Source: Branchiostoma floridae
Lineage: Eukaryota > Chordata > Leptocardii > Amphioxiformes > Branchiostomatidae
Direction: 5' to 3'
DNA: 64,000 nt
Assembly (NCBI RefSeq): GCF_000003815.2
Contig: NC_049986.1
Coordinates: forward strand, 10,809,900-10,873,899
Shown: positions 12,812 through 52,600 of the stretch, piece after piece
Numbering within the stretch: the stretch's first letter is position 1
Layout: each line of letters begins with the position of its first letter
Notes under the pieces: model-generated
The model's database searches: none
Told to the model about the DNA's origin: nothing
The model's input: only the letters and a program-made list of their open reading frames with translations
Program-made: the position numbers and the translations under genes

Positions 12812-13168
12812 TTAACCCTATTCAGACCAGGAGAGGGCTTTTGAGGCCTGCGCCAACTTCGATGTCCTATAACGCCAGAACGCCTTACGCTAAAGCCACC
12901 AAATTTAGTGACTTTTCCTAAAATATTGTTGGCAACAATATAACGAAGTTTGGCAAATTTTCCATTTTTTCGTGTTGCCATGGCAACCGTTTGCTGACAG
13001 GCAGTTTTGTCAAAAATCACTATCTTTGGTTCTAACAATGTATTTTTCACATTTATTTGCTATATTACAGCTATTTTGTTACATGAATAAAATCTTATAT
13101 TATTTAGCATATCTTTCATAATTATCCGTCCAGGGATGACCAAAAAAGCCCGGTCTGAATAGGGTTAA
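12812..13168. mobile_element. MITE with TTAA flanks (piggyBac-type), 349 bp
   Basis: The element runs 12,816-13,164. Its ends are CCCTATTCAGACC and the inverted GGTCTGAATAGGG, and it is flanked by TTAA at 12,812-12,815 and 13,165-13,168. TTAA targets and CCC-starting ends are known for the piggyBac superfamily. No transposase is present. The interior matches, in reverse orientation, the right half of the larger copy at 16,489-17,367. Confidence 0.8.
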
Positions 13169-15044: not shown

Positions 15045-15420
15045 TAGATGGGTGAGGGAGGTCTAAATGCGCCTGCGCCAACTTTGACGTCTTATAACTA
15101 CCAAACGACGTGTGCTGGGAAAACATAACTTGGTGAGTTTTCCGAAGCTTTTGTTAGAATCATTTCTAAAATAAAACTGTATGTCTGTGATTTATCGTAT
15201 CGCCATGGCATTGGTTATATTTTACCACATTTACTAATTTTGGTTTAAACAATCAGGTTTCATGGTTCTTGCTGAAAGACATTTGTCTTCATATATCATA
15301 AACATCTTATGTAAATTTCTGTGACATTTATGATTGGATATTTATAATTTATGCTAATTAGATTGCGTCAATGTTTAAAATTAAAGCATGCCATATCTAC
15401 GCAACGGTAAAATCAAGTTA
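15045..15420. repeat. Diverged relative of the TTAA MITE family
   Basis: From about 15,068 the sequence follows the same order as the MITE at 12,816: GCCTGCGCCAACTTTGACGT, then a TATAAC block, then GGTGAGTTTTCC, then CGCCATGGCA. No clean terminal repeats remain, so this is an old or truncated copy. Confidence 0.5.
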
Positions 15421-37965: not shown

Positions 37966-38574
37966 TACCGTATATTCTCGAATAAAGTACGCACCCCAAT
38001 TAAAGTACGCACCCCTGATTTTGGACAAGTCTTAGACAGATCTTTGGGACTGAAAGGTAAAATGGAAAAACTCAAATAAAGTACGCACCCCTTCTCCACC
38101 AGTTTTGAACAGACCTTTAACTAAATAAATTCGAATTTATGATGTTTTCCCCAGGTCATTTTGCATAAAATAACCTGGGTTTACACTGTCATTGTCTCTA
38201 TAAACTTGTGAATTGCCTGCTGCAAATTATAAAAATCACTGAGAACTGGTAGAAGAAATCAGGCAAAACCAGTTGTACAAGTCAAAGTCACTAACTCAAA
38301 AGGATTGTATGCAAATGCCACTGTTAATATGTAAATGATGTTAAGACAATTTCTTTGTTTCATGTTTAGACAACTTCAAGACAACAACAATGTGTATGTT
38401 TTGAAACATTACTAGAAGTGTAGCTCCACCTTGCTTTATTTTAGGCTTTTCTTACCATTTATCTGTGCAGTAACCTCAAATAAAGGACGCACCCCAACTT
38501 TGGCAACAACTTGTAGCACCTTTTCAATTTTGAAAAGTTAAAAAAGTACGTACTTTATTCGAGAATATACGGTA
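37966..38574. mobile_element. MITE with TA flanks, 605 bp
   Basis: The element runs 37,968-38,572. Ends CCGTATATTCTCGAATAAAG and the inverted CTTTATTCGAGAATATACGG are flanked by TA at 37,966 and 38,573. Several AAATAAAGTACGCACCCC repeats lie inside. TA targets suggest a Tc1/mariner-type MITE. Its right flank TA is exactly where the 6,946-bp duplication begins. Confidence 0.8.
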
Positions 38575-39101
38575 GCTAACGATTTGATGACCGCCTGTCT
38601 GTCACCTTCCTCATGGCATTTTGAATTTTGCCTCATGCGTCATTGCTATTATTATCATAACAAGCATTATACAAACTTTGTCAAATGCTGTCATGACGAC
38701 CTCTACCGGGTTTTCCTATATCTGCAGTTTTCTAATGTCTTAGGGCGGTCCATGTACCAGATCAAAGATCTAAGAAAAATCTATGATTGAAACACATTAA
38801 TTTTAAATTCCTTTGGTAAAACACTTTCGAGATGGCGATATCGAGAAATGACATGGCATGTTTTTGAACGCAGAAACGACGTTGTGATGAATTTGGACAT
38901 GAATTAAAAGCTTCATACCCTTGGCAATTATTTTTCAACGTCTTGTTGTAATGTTGGCCTTTGACCACTGCTCATGCGCATTCGGAACTAACTGTTTACC
39001 CTTTTGTTGTAATAAATATACAGCCTGGGGATATAAACTCGCCTGTGAAGTGCCATGAATTTTGCATTTTATATGCATTTTTTCATAATTCGGTCTTAAA
39101 T

Positions 39102-39116
39102 TTTATTTTATTTATT
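39102..39116 (-). promoter_or_regulatory. Candidate polyadenylation signals
   Basis: The minus strand reads AATAAATAAAATAAAA about 470 bases after the stop codon of the hydrolase. The same sequence occurs at 46,048-46,062 in the other copy. Two overlapping AATAAA hexamers; no nearer canonical signal was seen. Confidence 0.35.
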
Positions 39117-39585
39117 TTCATTTAGACAAACTGCGTTAACTAATGAGAAGACTCAATTTTGGCATTAACACCGATAACTTTTACTCCGCATTTACCATTT
39201 ATATGAGCTCTCCACATAAATATGACATTTTTAGGCTAGACCTTTCGAATTATCCTACTAGTTGACAAACGCTTCAAAGTGTGCGTGTAATCGCTAACTT
39301 AAATATCGACATGTAATACAATCATTTATAAGTTTAATATACGATGCAAAGTATTGGCTCTATATTAATAACGTAAATGAAACACTTAATGATCGGTCGG
39401 TTACTATAACTGTTGCATAAGCTACAACTGGGCGAGGCGTTGGCGGTTATGGACTCATAATGCTGAAATGGCCATTTTTCTTCAATGTACACTATGTCAT
39501 TTATAAGACATAGTCGGTGTCAGAAACAACCCAATAAACCACTGAGTGAGCGAAGCGATGGTTGACCATTACCCGTTAAATTGGC

Positions 39586-42500
39586 TCACAGTGCTGGTAT
39601 AGCATGTTTCTCCAGGGCTTCCAGAATATGTGGATAAACGTCACGAGCTGCGCTACTGCCGAAGATGCAGTCAATGTGTCCGTAGTTTGGGATGATGACG
39701 TGCGTGTACCTGAAGAAAAGCAAGGTAAGCTATTATTTCGGACATATTTTGCGATAATTTAGCGTCTAAGTACATGTTCTTGCAGCGTTTCGAAATCCCT
39801 ACAGTTGATTAGGCCTAGGAAAAATGTGTTTCCGCTTACCCATCCGACTCTAGCAATAACGTACTGAGTAACAATTTTAGGGGCAGATCGCTGGCAAGTG
39901 ATGTATACTTTTCCATTAAACATCAGTGCCAAGAAATTGTTGTAAAATTGTTTTCGAACATCTTTTTCTCACTTCTGTTGTAATAGAAAAATATATACAG
40001 TTGGACAAACCAAACCTAGGAAAAACTTACATACCAACGTATTTTTACTATGAACATAAAGTGGATGAATATGGGCTAACTACAACTGAAAAATCTTGAA
40101 TTCTAACATACTAAGAGGAAGAGGTAGTGATTAAATGTTCATACATCATACAGACTAAGGGTCTATATCTCTATTATGGGGTTTGACGTATTTGCAAACA
40201 GTTAAATAATTCATGATTATTTTCTGCAACGTTAATGTCAATTTTTGATTCTCCTGTCGATTGGACAGATGAGGAGGCAGACATGCTATTTACCTGTTTG
40301 CCTGACCTGCACATGACTTTTTATGGTGAAGGAGGGGTGTGCAATTCCTTCTCCACCCTCTCGTCTATTGGAGCACTAAGTCTCACAGGGGCAACTGTAT
40401 GCAACGTGTGAGCCGCCTCAGTGTCAATTGAAGTGGCTACGTATACGTACTCTTGATTGGGGTTAGCAGTGCAGCATTGCTCGAATGTTGTAAAGGTCGC
40501 CTTTGGTAGGAAGGTCATGTTCTTTTGGCCCACGATAAAACACATGGGGATGTCCAGCAGCTTCATCTTCTCCATGTAGGCATCGGATGTCTCTGGTTTA
40601 GCAAGTCTGTGGTCTGGTAGGTACGTGTCTCCTCCGTTAGCATCCAAAAGACATTCTTCACTGTTGGAAGATGTACATAATTCAGTGCATCTTAAAGATA
40701 TACGTTTGGAACTGCAGGGTGGGTTAAAAGCTCATTCAGCATTCCAAGTACAGGAATTGTGGATGATATCTCAAAGGTGATGGCCCCAAACCTGTGAACA
40801 GTTCTCGTCCCAAACGTTGCAAAACAATGCTTCAACGTGTCTTCACTTTGACATATTACCCCAAGATCATCAGTCGATGTGCATACTTATTTAGTCAAAA
40901 CGATGAAATAACTTATTGGCCAATGATTGTGATAGAAAATGCTATGTCGAGTGTCGATTAATTAAGCAAAGCAAAATATTTTTTAGCCAAAACTGTGTTT
41001 AAATGCTGTTTAGGTACTTCACCAGCTTTGAAAAAAAAATAGAACAACCACATGCACTTACTTCAAAATCTTGGTCAGGTGCATAAAAGCCGAAATATTT
41101 CCATAGCCGAAGAACTCGTGTAGAGTATCGTGTGTGGCCACGTTGAGGTTCTCGTGTTGATACAAAAGTCCGTACAGGAAAGAGATCCTAAAATTGTTCA
41201 GGACAAAAAGGGCTGAAAAAGTGGCTTTATGGTATGCTGATTCATATAGTGCATTTGCATAACTGCATGATGTACAAAATAACAGACAAACTCTTTGACA
41301 TAACAGTGTTGTGTCGTTCTCAGCTTCCAGCGGCTATGCCTAATTACAATAAAAAATATATCATATTATTTTTTTCTGAATCAAACTTAAACTGTAACTT
41401 CATGCACAATTTTTGACTGTTCAACTCCATTCATCGTAAATGAATGAGCAATCTACTACTTCTATGACGTCACATTTTACAAATAAAACACGTCACTCGA
41501 TGAGTAGTTGATATGTCTCTACAGAGGATGATTGTAAAGCCGTGATGTAGATGGCTTTTGTAGGTTCCATTCGCATAACGCGAGTGACGTCACAGAAGCT
41601 TTTCATTCCTTTAAAAAACATTAAAAAATAGGGGAACGTTCAGTTCTTGTTCTAAATTCAGTCATAATAACTTCCACTGACATATATGTAAATATAGATT
41701 TACTTTCTTGTTAAGTTTTCCTATTCTCCAGAACAGTTTACGTACCTCCTGCAAACTTTACTGTCACATCTCTCTGCTGACTTTAACTCCATCAGGTTGA
41801 AGACCTTACATCCAAACGTCGTCATGGCGTCCTTACATCCACCGTTAGGATCCAGTCGTGCATTTACGCCTTCCACACCAAACGCCTTCAGCATTCTGGG
41901 GAGCTTGGCCTTGGCTGCAATCCTTCGTATGCGTTTGGTCACAATGGGGTGAACAGCAACCTGAATATTGTCATTGAAAAACTTATTTAGTTAAATGTTA
42001 TATGTTAAATCTTAAACATATTTCATTAAACGCCCTCCATTAAACGTCATATCCGAGGGACGGCCCTAGCCGAAGCTAAGTGCTCATTTTTCACCTGAGA
42101 CTGAGTGAAGTGAAGAAAGCCCTTTAAAGTGCTTTTGGGCATGAGCCAAAAGCACTACAGATTACGCCACACGATCTCAATTTTGATTTATCTAACATAC
42201 CTGTGATGAGACAAGACTGCGAATCTTTCCCTGAAGCTTCCCCATCAGCAGTGAAGCAAAGAATGTAACGGAGCCGACACAGTGGACAACGGCCTGTATG
42301 TCTGGGCTGCCCGTCACCTTTAAACAGAAATGTACGATAGCGGGTAAGCCTAGATTAAAAAAGACATGACTTAGATACATATTCAGTCGAATTCTAATAT
42401 TATTAACATTATGACTTTGTATGCTATCTTTCTTAACGTGATCGATATACATATAAAGCCATTTAGATATAAATGCCATGGTGTTGAAAATCAGAAGCTA

Positions 42501-45089: not shown

Positions 45090-46531
45090 CTGGAAAGACG
45101 AAAAGTGATATCGATATATTCAACGTTAGCGTCTGAAATACCCGGTGCAAACGCGGTGAAGTGACCAGGCAAGTGGGAAAATTGTTCAATACCCCGTAGA
45201 GTCATGTCAAAGTTTTTGAAATCGGCACATGTTGCTTCATTAGCTAATCACTCAGCATTTCAGAGAAAAGGGATGGTAGTTGATCACACAGAAGCAGTGA
45301 AGTAGGCCCCACACCCATCCCCTCGCACTAGTAATTGCACACCATATATAAATATGTTACTTATATTAATTTTACATTCGCGGATCCCACTGCGCAAGGT
45401 GAAGCCCACCTAGACTTTACGAAAACACCCCTGGGTATTGTAGAATTATCGTAAATGACTTTCGTGAGTAAGCTGAGTTTCGTTTGGGAATCTGGCCGGG
45501 AATCGAACTCGTGACCTTTAGCTAACGATTTGATGACCGCCTGTCTGTCACCTTCCTCATGGCATTTTGAATTTTGCCTCATGCGTCATTGCTATTATTA
45601 TCATAACAAGCATTATACAAACTTTGTCAAATGCTGTCATGACGACCTCTACCGGGTTTTCCTATATCTGCAGTTTTCTAATGTCTTAGGGCGGTCCATG
45701 TACCAGATCAAAGATCTAAGAAAAATCTATGATTGAAACACATTAATTTTAAATTCCTTTGGTAAAACACTTTCGAGATGGCGATATCGAGAAATGACAT
45801 GGCATGTTTTTGAACGCAGAAACGACGTTGTGATGAATTTGGACATGAATTAAAAGCTTCATACCCTTGGCAATTATTTTTCAACGTCTTGTTGTAATGT
45901 TGGCCTTTGACCACTGCTCATGCGCATTCGGAACTAACTGTTTACCCTTTTGTTGTAATAAATATACAGCCTGGGGATATAAACTCGCCTGTGAAGTGCC
46001 ATGAATTTTGCATTTTATATGCATTTTTTCATAATTCGGTCTTAAATTTTATTTTATTTATTTTCATTTAGACAAACTGCGTTAACTAATGAGAAGACTC
46101 AATTTTGGCATTAACACCGATAACTTTTACTCCGCATTTACCATTTATATGAGCTCTCCACATAAATATGACATTTTTAGGCTAGACCTTTCGAATTATC
46201 CTACTAGTTGACAAACGCTTCAAAGTGTGCGTGTAATCGCTAACTTAAATATCGACATGTAATACAATCATTTATAAGTTTAATATACGATGCAAAGTAT
46301 TGGCTCTATATTAATAACGTAAATGAAACACTTAATGATCGGTCGGTTACTATAACTGTTGCATAAGCTACAACTGGGCGAGGCGTTGGCGGTTATGGAC
46401 TCATAATGCTGAAATGGCCATTTTTCTTCAATGTACACTATGTCATTTATAAGACATAGTCGGTGTCAGAAACAACCCAATAAACCACTGAGTGAGCGAA
46501 GCGATGGTTGACCATTACCCGTTAAATTGGC

Positions 46532-46655
46532 TCACAGTGCTGGTATAGCATGTTTCTCCAGGGCTTCCAGAATATGTGGATAAACGTCACGAGCTGCGCT
46601 ACTGCCGAAGATGCAGTCAATGTGTCCGTAGTTTGGGATGATGACGTGCGTGTAC
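46532..46655 (-). CDS. Terminal exon: catalytic His and stop
   Basis: Acceptor CTTCAG|GTACAC. Encodes YTHVIIPNYGHIDCIFGSSA and ends EKHAIPAL with TGA at 46,532-46,534. NYGHID holds the catalytic His of the hydrolase. Identical to 39,586-39,709. Confidence 0.88.
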
Positions 46656-49600
46656 CTGAAGAAAAGCAAGGTAAGCTATTATTTCGGACATATTTTGCGA
46701 TAATTTAGCGTCTAAGTACATGTTCTTGCAGCGTTTCGAAATCCCTACAGTTGATTAGGCCTAGGAAAAATGTGTTTCCGCTTACCCATCCGACTCTAGC
46801 AATAACGTACTGAGTAACAATTTTAGGGGCAGATCGCTGGCAAGTGATGTATACTTTTCCATTAAACATCAGTGCCAAGAAATTGTTGTAAAATTGTTTT
46901 CGAACATCTTTTTCTCACTTCTGTTGTAATAGAAAAATATATACAGTTGGACAAACCAAACCTAGGAAAAACTTACATACCAACGTATTTTTACTATGAA
47001 CATAAAGTGGATGAATATGGGCTAACTACAACTGAAAAATCTTGAATTCTAACATACTAAGAGGAAGAGGTAGTGATTAAATGTTCATACATCATACAGA
47101 CTAAGGGTCTATATCTCTATTATGGGGTTTGACGTATTTGCAAACAGTTAAATAATTCATGATTATTTTCTGCAACGTTAATGTCAATTTTTGATTCTCC
47201 TGTCGATTGGACAGATGAGGAGGCAGACATGCTATTTACCTGTTTGCCTGACCTGCACATGACTTTTTATGGTGAAGGAGGGGTGTGCAATTCCTTCTCC
47301 ACCCTCTCGTCTATTGGAGCACTAAGTCTCACAGGGGCAACTGTATGCAACGTGTGAGCCGCCTCAGTGTCAATTGAAGTGGCTACGTATACGTACTCTT
47401 GATTGGGGTTAGCAGTGCAGCATTGCTCGAATGTTGTAAAGGTCGCCTTTGGTAGGAAGGTCATGTTCTTTTGGCCCACGATAAAACACATGGGGATGTC
47501 CAGCAGCTTCATCTTCTCCATGTAGGCATCGGATGTCTCTGGTTTAGCAAGTCTGTGGTCTGGTAGGTACGTGTCTCCTCCGTTAGCATCCAAAAGACAT
47601 TCTTCACTGTTGGAAGATGTACATAATTCAGTGCATCTTAAAGATATACGTTTGGAACTGCAGGGTGGGTTAAAAGCTCATTCAGCATTCCAAGTACAGG
47701 AATTGTGGATCATATCTCAAAGGTGATGGCCCCAAACCTGTGAGCAGTTCTCGTCCCAAACGTTGCAAAACAATGCTAGTAGTATATAGTCAGCACGCTG
47801 ACTATCATTATTCAGGTGGAGCAAGGTGGAGCAGGTCAGAGGTCAGAAACTAGTTATTCAGGCGCAGCAGGTCAGGGGTCAGATATTATGTATTCAGGAG
47901 CAGGTCAGAGGTCATAAGTCACATCATTATTCAGGTGGAGCAGGTCAGGGGTCAGATATCTTATATTCAGGCGGAGCAAGGTAACGACGACAACCCCACC
48001 TCACCCCAAATGAACCTCCCCCTCCCCAATCGTGAAAGGCATGTCCTTATTTGGCCTGGTCAAGTCTCTAAGTCACAAAATAAAAACAAAGAAAACATGA
48101 CAACATGTGATTTTCCCGTTCAACTGCTCCGGAGTAAAATAAACTGCTCCGGAGTAAAATAAAACTGCTCCGGAGTATGCTCCGGAGTAAGTGAGTAAGT
48201 ATATTTGTTGTAAGTATGTATATTTGTCATGTACGTACGAACATATACCATCTATATCTACATGCAGTGAAACATTGCTTTGGAGTAACTATACGTGTTG
48301 CTCCGGAGTAAAAACACTGCTCCGGAGTAAAAGAAAACTGCTCCGGAGTAAAAACACTGCTCCGGAGTAAAAGAAAACTGCTCCGGAGTAAAAGAAACTG
48401 CTCCGGAGTATGCTCCGGAGTAAGTGAGTAAGTATATTTGTTGTAAGTATGTATATTTGTCATGTACGTACGAACATATACCATCTATATGTACATGCAG
48501 TGAAACATTGCTTTGGAGTAGCTATACGTTTTGCTCCGGAGTAAGTATATTCGTGTTAAGTAACGCATACGTATTTGCCATGTACGTGCCTGTTATGTAC
48601 TAGGCATANNNNNNNNNNNNNNNNNNNNNNNNNNNNNNNNNNNNNNNNNNNNNNNNNNNNNNNNNNNNNNNNNNNNNNNNNNNNNNNNNNNNNNNNNNNN
48701 NNNNNNNNGTAATTGCAAAATTCCCGATCACAAATTTCGCAGACGTGAGGCATACTTTTTGTTCGGCGGACAGAAGGGAAATGATAAGGTATTGATGTGC
48801 ACACATATATTTGTCGCGCATGAAAGTTTTTAAGGGATCGGTCGTTTATCTTGTATGCATCATGCATCTACGTATGCCGTTACTGCATACGTGGTATTGA
48901 AATATTGTTGTCATGAATGAAACGTAGATGCATCCAGGGTGCATACAAGATAAACGACCGATCCCTTAAAAACTTTCATGCGCGACAAATATATGTGTGC
49001 ACATCAATACCTTATCATTTCCCTTCTGTCCGCCGAACAAAAAGTATGCCTCACGTCTGCGAAATTTGTGATCGGGAATTTGATCGTGCGTTCAACCTCG
49101 AGCGTCATCTGGAAAGAAAACACCGAGACGAGTCAGGTGTTGCCTCGGGAGAAGTCGTCGTTGATGCCGAGACGGGCTCTTACCGGGAGCGCGATGTTTT
49201 CGACGACTCCGACGTGTCGTCTGAACACGATACGGACACGGTTGGTTCCGAAGGTTCGACGGTGTCACAGGATGAAGGAAGCGTATCAGATGCCGAATCT
49301 GTGATGGGCTCCGAGCAGGGAGACTCCACAGAAGAAACCGACAGCGAACAAAGTGGTTCCGAGAGTGATACCGGGACAGATGTGTCCTCAGGGACGGTTT
49401 CGTCTGATGAAAGTGAACGCACTGGCTACGACAGCGGCTACCACAGCGGTGACGAGGAGGAGTGGACACTCTATCGAGACTTGACCATCGCACTACCTCA
49501 CCAGCCAGGCGATGTTCCTCAAAGTGTCATCAAACAGACGAAGCGCGCTGGCAAAAAGTTTTATCTAATAGAGTTCGCTGCGTTGCCTCGTTACAGTAAT

Positions 49601-52600
49601 GAGATTGTACACAGCAAGAACTGGGTCTCAGAACAGACATTGATGAAAAAATATGGTTACCTCGTCCTGAAGTAATGTGAGGTCGCCATATCGCCTGCAG
49701 TACAGCTTTTCTTTCCTAATGTCATACCATGTTTGACATACAGGATCGGACGAGATGTACATTGGTTATGAATTCCTTGATACATTTTTTATGGACGTCA
49801 AGTGATAGTAAAGTCTTAAGAAACAGGATCACCGTACACTCCTGTCTTTTGTATTGTTGTGTTGATATATGCCTAGTACATAACAGGCACGTACATGGCA
49901 AATACGTATGCGTTACTTAACACGAATATACTTACTCCGGAGCAAAACGTATAGCTACTCCAAAGCAATGTTTCACTGCATGTACATATAGATGGTATAT
50001 GTTCGTACGTACATGACAAATATACATACTTACAACAAATATACTTACTCACTTACTCCGGAGCATACTCCGGAGCAGTTTCTTTTACTCCGGAGCAGTT
50101 TTCTTTTACTCCGGAGCAGTGTTTTTACTCCGGAGCAGTTTTCTTTTACTCCGGAGCAGTGTTTTTACTCCGGAGCAACACGTATAGTTACTCCAAAGCA
50201 ATGTTTCACTGCATGTAGATATAGATGGTATATGTTCGTACGTACATGACAAATATACATACTTACAACAAATATACTTACTCACTTACTCCGGAGCATA
50301 CTCCGGAGCAGTTTTATTTTACTCCGGAGCAGTTTATTTTACTCCGGAGCAGTTGAACGGGAAAATCACATGTTGTCATGTTTTCTTTGTTTTTATTTTG
50401 TGACTTAGAGACTTGACCAGGCCAAATAAGGACATGCCTTTCACGATTGGGGAGGGGGAGGTTCATTTGGGGTGAGGTGGGGTTGTCGTCGTTACCTTGC
50501 TCCGCCTGAATATAAGATATCTGACCCCTGACCTGCTCCACCTGAATAATGATGTGACTTATGACCTCTGACCTGCTCCTGAATACATAATATCTGACCC
50601 CTGACCTGCTGCGCCTGAATAACTAGTTTCTGACCTCTGACCTGCTCCACCTTGCTCCACCTGAATAATGATAGTCAGCGTGCTGACTATATACTACTAA
50701 TGCTTCAACGTGTCTTCACTTTGACATATTACCCCAAGATCATCAGTCGCTGTGCATAGTTATTTACTCAAAACAATGAAATAACTTATTGGCCGAAGAA
50801 TTTTGCTTGTGATAAAAAATGCTATGTCGAGTGTCGATTAAGTAAGCAAAGCAAAATATTTTTAGCCAAAACTGTGTTTAAATGCTATTTAGGTACTTCA
50901 CCAGCTTTGAAAAAACATGAACCACCACATGCACTTACTTTAAAATCTTGGTCAGGTGCATAAAAGCCGAAATATTTCCATAGCCGAAGAACTCGTGTAG
51001 AGTATCGTGTGTGGCCACGTTGAGGTTCTCGTGTTGATACAAAAGTCCGTACAGGAAAGAGATCCTATAATTGTTCAGGACAAAAAGGGCTGAAAAAGTG
51101 GCTTTATGGTATGCTAATTCATATAGTGCATTTGCATAACTGCATGATGTACAAAATAACAGACAAAGTCTTTGACATAACAGTGTCATGTCGTTCTCAG
51201 CTTCCAACGGCTATGCCTAATTACAACAATAAAAATATCATAATATTTTTTTCTGAATCAAACTTTAACTGTAACTTCATGCACAGTTTTCGACTGTTCA
51301 ACTCCATTCATCGTAAATGAATGAGCAATCTACTACTTCTATGACGTCACATTTTACAAATAAAACACGTCACTCGATGAGTAGTTGATCATATGTCTCT
51401 GCAGAGGATGATTGTAAAGCCGTGATGTAGATGACTTTTGTAGGTTCCATTTGCATAATGCGACGTCACAGAAGCTTTTCATTCCTTTAAAAAACATTAA
51501 AAAATAGGGGAACGTTCAGTTCTTGTGTTGGAGATTACAGTTTAAATTTCGGTCATAATAACTTCCACTGACATATATGTAAATTTAGATTTACTTTCTT
51601 GTTAAGTTTTCCTATTCTCCAGAACAGTTTACGTACCTCCTGCAAACCTTACTGTCACATCTTTCCGCTGACTTTAACTCCATCAGGTTGAAGACCTTAC
51701 ATCCAAACGTCGTCATGGCATCCTTACATCCACCGTTAGGATCCAGTCGTGCATTTACGCCTTCCACACCAAACGCCTTCAGCATTCTGGGGAGCTTGGC
51801 CTTGGCTGCAACCCTTCGTATGCGTTTGGTCACAATAGGGTGGGCAGCGACCTAAATGTTGTCATTGAAAACTCATTTAGTTAAATGTTATATGTTAAAT
51901 GTTATACATATTTCATAATACGCCCTCCATTAAACGTCATATCCGAGGGACGGCCCTAGCCGAAGCTAGGTGCTCATTTTTCACCTGAGACTGAGTGAAG
52001 TGAAGAAAGCCCTTTAAAGTGCTTTTGGGCATGAGCCAAAAGCACTACAGATTACGCCACACGATCTCAATTTTGATTTATCTAACATACCTGTGATGAG
52101 ACAAGGCTGCGAATCTTTCCCTGAAGCTTCCCCATCAGCAGTGAAGCAAAGAATGTCACGGAGCCGACACAGTGGACAACGGCCTGTATGTCTGGGTTGC
52201 CCGTCACCTTTAAACAGAAATGTGCGATAGGCGGTAAGCCTAGATTAACAAAGACATGACTTAGATATATATTCAGTTGAATTCTAATAATAACATTGTG
52301 ACTTTATATGCTATCTTTCTTAACGTGATCGATATACATATAAAGCAATTTAGATATAAATGCCACGGTGTTGAAAATCAGAAGGCTTAGCTAAAATGAT
52401 ATGCATTATGTATTCATGAAAATGAGTGATGCAAGATATAGCTGTAAAACTAGGTTTACGATAAAAAAATCTTTACCGTAATGATTTTGTCCACGGCAGC
52501 GGGGATGTCATACCTGAAAGAATAAATGTAAATGTATTTGCTGTGTGAGAAACAGAAAGTGATAGCATGATTATGTCTATGATATCTTATATATGCAACC

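Follow-up and report, generated by a model that had tools for sequence, protein, structure and literature searches.

Palindromic elements with Maverick-type ends and a conserved finger protein gene in the lancelet Branchiostoma floridae

Vertebrate Mavericks have been described with the end motifs (AG)3//(CT)3 and (AGT)2//(ACT)2, perfect 6-bp target duplications and repeats of 46-1,447 bp, and intact ones measure 12.7-24.6 kb (PMC8097293). Target duplications are 6 bp long in Polintons, 4 bp in Ginger1 and 4 or 5 bp in Ginger2 (PMC10045372). Ginger elements are present in the lancelet, and the group has TGTNR ends, CCGG/CCGT or RTATAY targets and 4-bp duplications (PMC2836005). Here we analyze a palindromic transposon in a 64,000-nucleotide stretch of the Branchiostoma floridae genome (contig NC_049986.1, positions 10,809,900 to 10,873,899; the whole stretch is called the window, and coordinates count from its first base), together with seven other copies from the same genome (L004 to L010). 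We lean slightly towards reading them as members of one non-autonomous family in the lancelet, palindromic in structure, with Maverick-type ends and mobilization in trans.

The insertion of a transposon at 47772-50704 is shown by a comparison within the window. The host unit is tandemly duplicated there, and the neighboring unit holds an unoccupied site with ATGC once, at 40827-40830. After removal of the element in silico, the two host units align gap-free across the junction. A first-pass annotation of the sequence had proposed a palindromic transposon with an exact empty site in the same window; the palindromic insertion and the single ATGC were borne out, with the qualification that the empty site sits in a tandem paralog and not in an allele.

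That annotation had also regarded the boundaries as fixed to the base, which the data do not bear out. ATGC is preceded by A and followed by T on both sides of the element and in the empty site, so that duplications of 4 (ATGC), 5 or 6 (AATGCT) bases fit equally well at this site alone. A distinction comes from L004, whose tip reads GACAA followed by AGTAGTAT (in longer form, TTCAAGACAA followed by AGTAGTATAG). The base preceding AGTAGTAT is A in L004 and T in the window copy, and therefore belongs to the target, outside the element. This T is the leading base of TAGTAGTAT, the tip originally paired with a 4-bp duplication, and a 6-bp duplication with AGTAGTAT tips is now preferred. Judging from a single complete insertion together with the tip of L004, the element is best read as 47778-50698, with tips AGTAGTAT...ATACTACT and the target duplication AATGCT at 47772-47777 on the left (47773-47776 in a 4-bp reading) and at 50699-50704 on the right; comparison of the host units places the unoccupied AATGCT at 40826-40831. 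The flanks differ in their similarity to the paralog. The left flank is 99.9% identical over 2,259 bp (45519-47777 versus 38573-40831), with eight successive 250-bp bins at 100%, and the right flank is 94.1% identical, a contrast that may reflect either gene conversion in the recent past or a duplication introduced by the assembly beside the gap inside the element (see below).

The arms at 47777-48608 and 49868-50699 are reverse complements in 832 of 832 bases, in agreement with the earlier description of arms free of indels. Within the 6-bp boundaries, the left arm (47778-48608, forward strand) begins with AGTAGTAT, and the right arm (49868-50698, reverse strand), complementary to it, ends with ATACTACT. 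The element contains a 100-N assembly gap (48609-48708), and the left arm stops exactly there. Its inner end being cut by the gap, the 832-bp arm (a lower bound) and the annotated total of 2,923 bp are therefore no measurements. On the far side of the gap, an inner inverted repeat adjoins the mirror center: 48718-48867 pairs with 48932-49081 (both on the forward strand) at 98% complementarity, with 3 mismatches lying beside the center, and the two enclose 64 unpaired bases (48868-48931).

A gene for a 209-aa finger protein lies at 49046-49675 on the forward strand. A mirrored second copy of this gene begins on the reverse strand (48709-48753). Its first 12 codons, which the left side of the inner repeat contains, match, and 3 more do not before the gap is reached; the mirrored gene starts are 292 bp apart. 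Between the inner repeat and the gap, eight of nine bases fail to match the mirror, either through poor sequence at the contig end or because they mark a real junction. The arm may in reality extend over the entire finger gene, and a full mirror would place about 777 bp inside the gap. Because of the gap, the mirror length of the window copy is unproven.

The ends of the element resemble those of Mavericks. The tips AGTAGTAT...ATACTACT fit (AGT)2//(ACT)2, and the arm of at least 831 bp falls inside the published range of 46-1,447 bp (PMC8097293). The 6-bp length of the duplication is also that of Polintons, with AATGCT on both sides and once in the empty site, as seen in one complete insertion. 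A tip match of this kind would arise by chance in about 6 of 4,096 cases, assuming equal base frequencies and counting two 6-mers in three registers. The element had previously been considered to match no nameable family; AGTAGTAT tips and a 6-bp duplication are, however, both published for Mavericks/Polintons (PMC8097293). It differs from these in being 2.9 kb as assembled, in being mirrored and in having no core gene found, and its finger/chromo protein is absent from the genes in the figure legend of PMC8097293. Pfam searches of six of the seven element open reading frames (ORFs) of at least 60 aa, some of them covered in part and with the gap bases hidden, found no polymerase, integrase, capsid, ATPase or protease gene; apart from one chance-level row (E 0.11), the C2H2 finger was the only match. 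No transposase was recognizable among the ORFs scanned, as had been noted before. We thus describe the element as non-autonomous, with ends of Maverick type but without proven membership of the Mavericks, and do not file it as autonomous. Among the sequences covered here, no autonomous parent was encountered. Non-autonomous Maverick/Polinton derivatives seem hardly described, and a narrowly worded literature search for them returned no description.

Foldback (FB-type) transposons have long inverted arms full of short tandem repeats, so that arms of this build are known elsewhere. We consider it unlikely, though less so than the other alternatives, that the element is a conventional foldback transposon that moves by cut-and-paste and belongs to some other superfamily (the unnamed family of the first-pass annotation, with Ginger-type and IS3EU-type ends as candidates). 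Ginger1 and Ginger2 occur in the same host genus and resemble the element in their integrase-type superfamily, and lancelet Ginger elements make 4-bp duplications, but their TGTNR ends and CCGG/CCGT or RTATAY targets contrast with AGTAGT at AATGCT (PMC2836005). The L004 tip also disfavors the 4-bp reading, and the lancelet element differs from foldback transposons in its tips, its target duplication and its conserved finger/chromo gene.

The host genome (G000, 513 Mb) contains a large family of the finger gene, for which all counts are lower bounds. At least 103 matches were found, corresponding after merging to at least 89 gene copies, at least 68 of which span 150 residues or more. From these matches, 19 neighboring pairs within 5 kb were obtained, 16 of them head-to-head, 2 on the same strand and 1 convergent; the two same-strand pairs look like one gene split in fragments. 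In eight of the 16 head-to-head pairs both copies reach at least 150 residues, and in the remaining eight one partner is a fragment. The distances between the genes in seven complete pairs are 113, 289, 294, 336, 391, 636 and 2,702 bp.

Mirroring was also evident in other copies. L007 has inverted arms of 973 bp with 99.79% identity, truncated where the fetched stretch stops and including the gene from residue 57 on, and L008 is mirrored as well, with a gap at its center. L004, L006 and L010 have no mirror in the 1.2-1.4 kb beyond the gene, and their flanks are mutually unrelated by blastn and tblastx (for tblastx with L006, among the matches listed). Long N runs occupy the inner side of L005 (1-1304) and L009 (1-1330), unlike the usual 100-N gaps, and the assessment of mirroring covers the other five copies.

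The mirror center connects several of these copies. We compared the 64 bases at 48868-48931 with the seven other copies, using 50 shuffles for each. The center recurs in four of the seven (63/64 identical bases in L005, 58/62 in L007, 49/59 in L009 and 46/56 in L004), in each case beating all 50 shuffles; it is doubtful in L010 and was not found in L006, nor in L008, where a gap takes its place. Relative to the gene, the center of L004 is oriented as in the window, and those of L005, L007 and L009 are reversed. An unmirrored parent would give one orientation, whereas the halves of a palindrome give both. On this sequence comparison, the window copy, L004, L005, L007 and L009, at least, therefore go back to one palindromic founder, and L004 and other copies without a mirror are more plausibly remnants.

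The same data bear on the possibility that every palindrome formed separately, by many independent snap-backs from an unmirrored Maverick parent. Such an origin would agree with the spread of gene distances over the seven complete pairs (113 to 2,702 bp) and with the three copies that are unmirrored where fetched, but not with a 64-base center shared by four of the seven other copies in both orientations, nor with two complete pairs whose distances (289 and 294 bp) nearly equal the 292 bp of the window copy. Because of the shared center and the similar distances we now regard it as improbable, and our estimate for the Maverick-type ends is unchanged by this. That the mirror as a whole was made by misassembly at the gap is very unlikely, although the left arm terminates at the 100-N gap, gaps also occur in L004, L005, L007 and L008, and the flanks differ in identity to the paralog (99.9% versus 94.1%), since the DNA flanking the two tips differs but carries identical target bases, present once in the empty site, head-to-head pairs recur and the center is common to other copies; an artifact may still affect the mirror length in the window copy.

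Within elements the halves are nearly identical (832/832 bases in the window copy, 99.79% in L007), and of the seven pairs with two copies that each cover residues 1-209, four have equal bit scores in their main rows. Between elements, synonymous divergence reaches a dS of 0.14. Near-identity of the arms within an element, set against divergence among elements, requires that the mirror be renewed. Either one half serves in each cycle as the template for its counterpart, by fold-back replication, or gene conversion operates inside the palindrome.

A mechanism consistent with these observations would combine two activities. A Maverick-type integrase, supplied in trans, would join the element tips to target DNA, and copying, which could start at either tip, would fall to a protein-primed polymerase. 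If strand-displacement replication snapped back, one end would be copied twice, yielding a founder; from our analysis, we rate a snap-back origin of the founder at somewhat less than an even chance. Such a founder would be linear and short, and its two ends would share one type of origin and of integrase site. Fold-back copying may then renew the mirror. Symmetric defective adenovirus genomes are comparable in that one genome end stands at both termini of a short palindrome and replication is protein-primed; they are extrachromosomal, whereas in the lancelet mirrored forms have integrated at numerous sites. Rearrangement of adenovirus vectors through inverted repeats, for which Steinwaerder 1999 is reportedly the primary source cited, offers a precedent for the snap-back step. 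In these vectors, inverted repeats lead to replication-induced rearrangement (PMC2518115).

The finger protein itself is conserved, apparently by selection. It has a C2H2 finger at residues 3-26, an acidic serine-rich linker and a weakly chromodomain-like C-terminus (about residues 152-209). All eight copies have an open reading frame, with a pooled pN/pS of 0.19 over 28 pairs, and the best 36 of the at least 103 genome matches contain no stop. Related copies in the lancelet genome keep the gene open. The element had been credited with a lone finger protein; the C2H2 finger is confirmed, and "lone" no longer applies in view of the mirrored second start (48753 downwards), the weakly chromodomain-like end and the large genomic family. 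Pfam gave no match above the cut-off for the C-terminus or for the N-terminal extension of the B. belcheri model P0027, a protein search with that extension returned only itself, and the 60 matches listed in a PDB sequence search all run through the finger region. The B. belcheri relatives P0008, P0010, P0012, P0013 and others are labeled in public records as "Crystallin, lambda 1" or "ATP-dependent RNA helicase", apparently by mis-annotation.

The protein probably binds element DNA and chromatin. Its natural candidate site is the array of 12 TGCTCCGGAGTA units in each arm (48125-48543 in the left arm, forward strand), whose core, CTCCGGAG, has 0 occurrences elsewhere in the window (61,077 bases beyond the element). 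The arm contains two further repeats. A near-perfect small palindrome, ATAGTCAGC-AC-GCTGACTAT, lies by the tip (47786-47805), its inner half ACGCTGACTAT being retained in L004, and a 21-nt repeat with GGTCAGRGGTCA is present four times, in diverged form, at 47828-47957 (forward strand).

Some longer copies carry additional sequence in their arms. In L005 (3123-3308) and L008 (2938-3259), a truncated segment of a ribonucleotide reductase small subunit with broken frames (PF00268, E 4.6e-17 in both copies) separates the repeat array from the tip-side part of the arm, and its inner junction is the same in the two. A further part of this subunit adjoins the repeat array in L006 (3326-3625, E 4.4e-35); it would lie within the arm, the fetched stretch ending inside the gene. 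A Bcl-2 family ORF is present in the arm of L004 (538-1041; PF00452, E 2.5e-9), and of 22 candidates two proved to be relatives (82-87%, E up to 0.001), both on short contigs. Neither ribonucleotide reductase nor Bcl-2 sequence was found in the assembled part of the window copy.

A wider interpretation, which we put forward tentatively and as clearly less probable than the family with Maverick-type ends and mobilization in trans, is a self-mirrored satellite of a Maverick-like virus, with one snap-back founder, halves re-templated in each cycle, a selected finger/chromo protein and, in the arms of longer forms, captured host-like genes (the ribonucleotide reductase small subunit and the Bcl-2 relative). 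If palindromic forms with Maverick-type ends do spread as a family, these virus-like elements are accompanied by satellites, whose mode of copying would then be recorded in how alike their halves are. The finger protein and the 12-unit arrays form a testable DNA-binding pair.

Viral sequences were considered separately. Among viral contigs scanned with the finger-protein alignment, four stretches fit a pattern and none was confirmed, and a 17-base tip pattern occurred in two contigs that have no further blastn similarity to the element. Integration of a malacoherpesvirus was rejected as a source, as PMC12373286 reports the provirus to be absent from 41 B. floridae samples and nothing ties the virus to the tips; the same paper also mentions earlier, unvalidated malacoherpesvirus reports in both species. 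Elsewhere in the window, a repeat at 12846-13100 and 15071-15309 also occurs in L010, on its outer flank, with an identity of about 70%.

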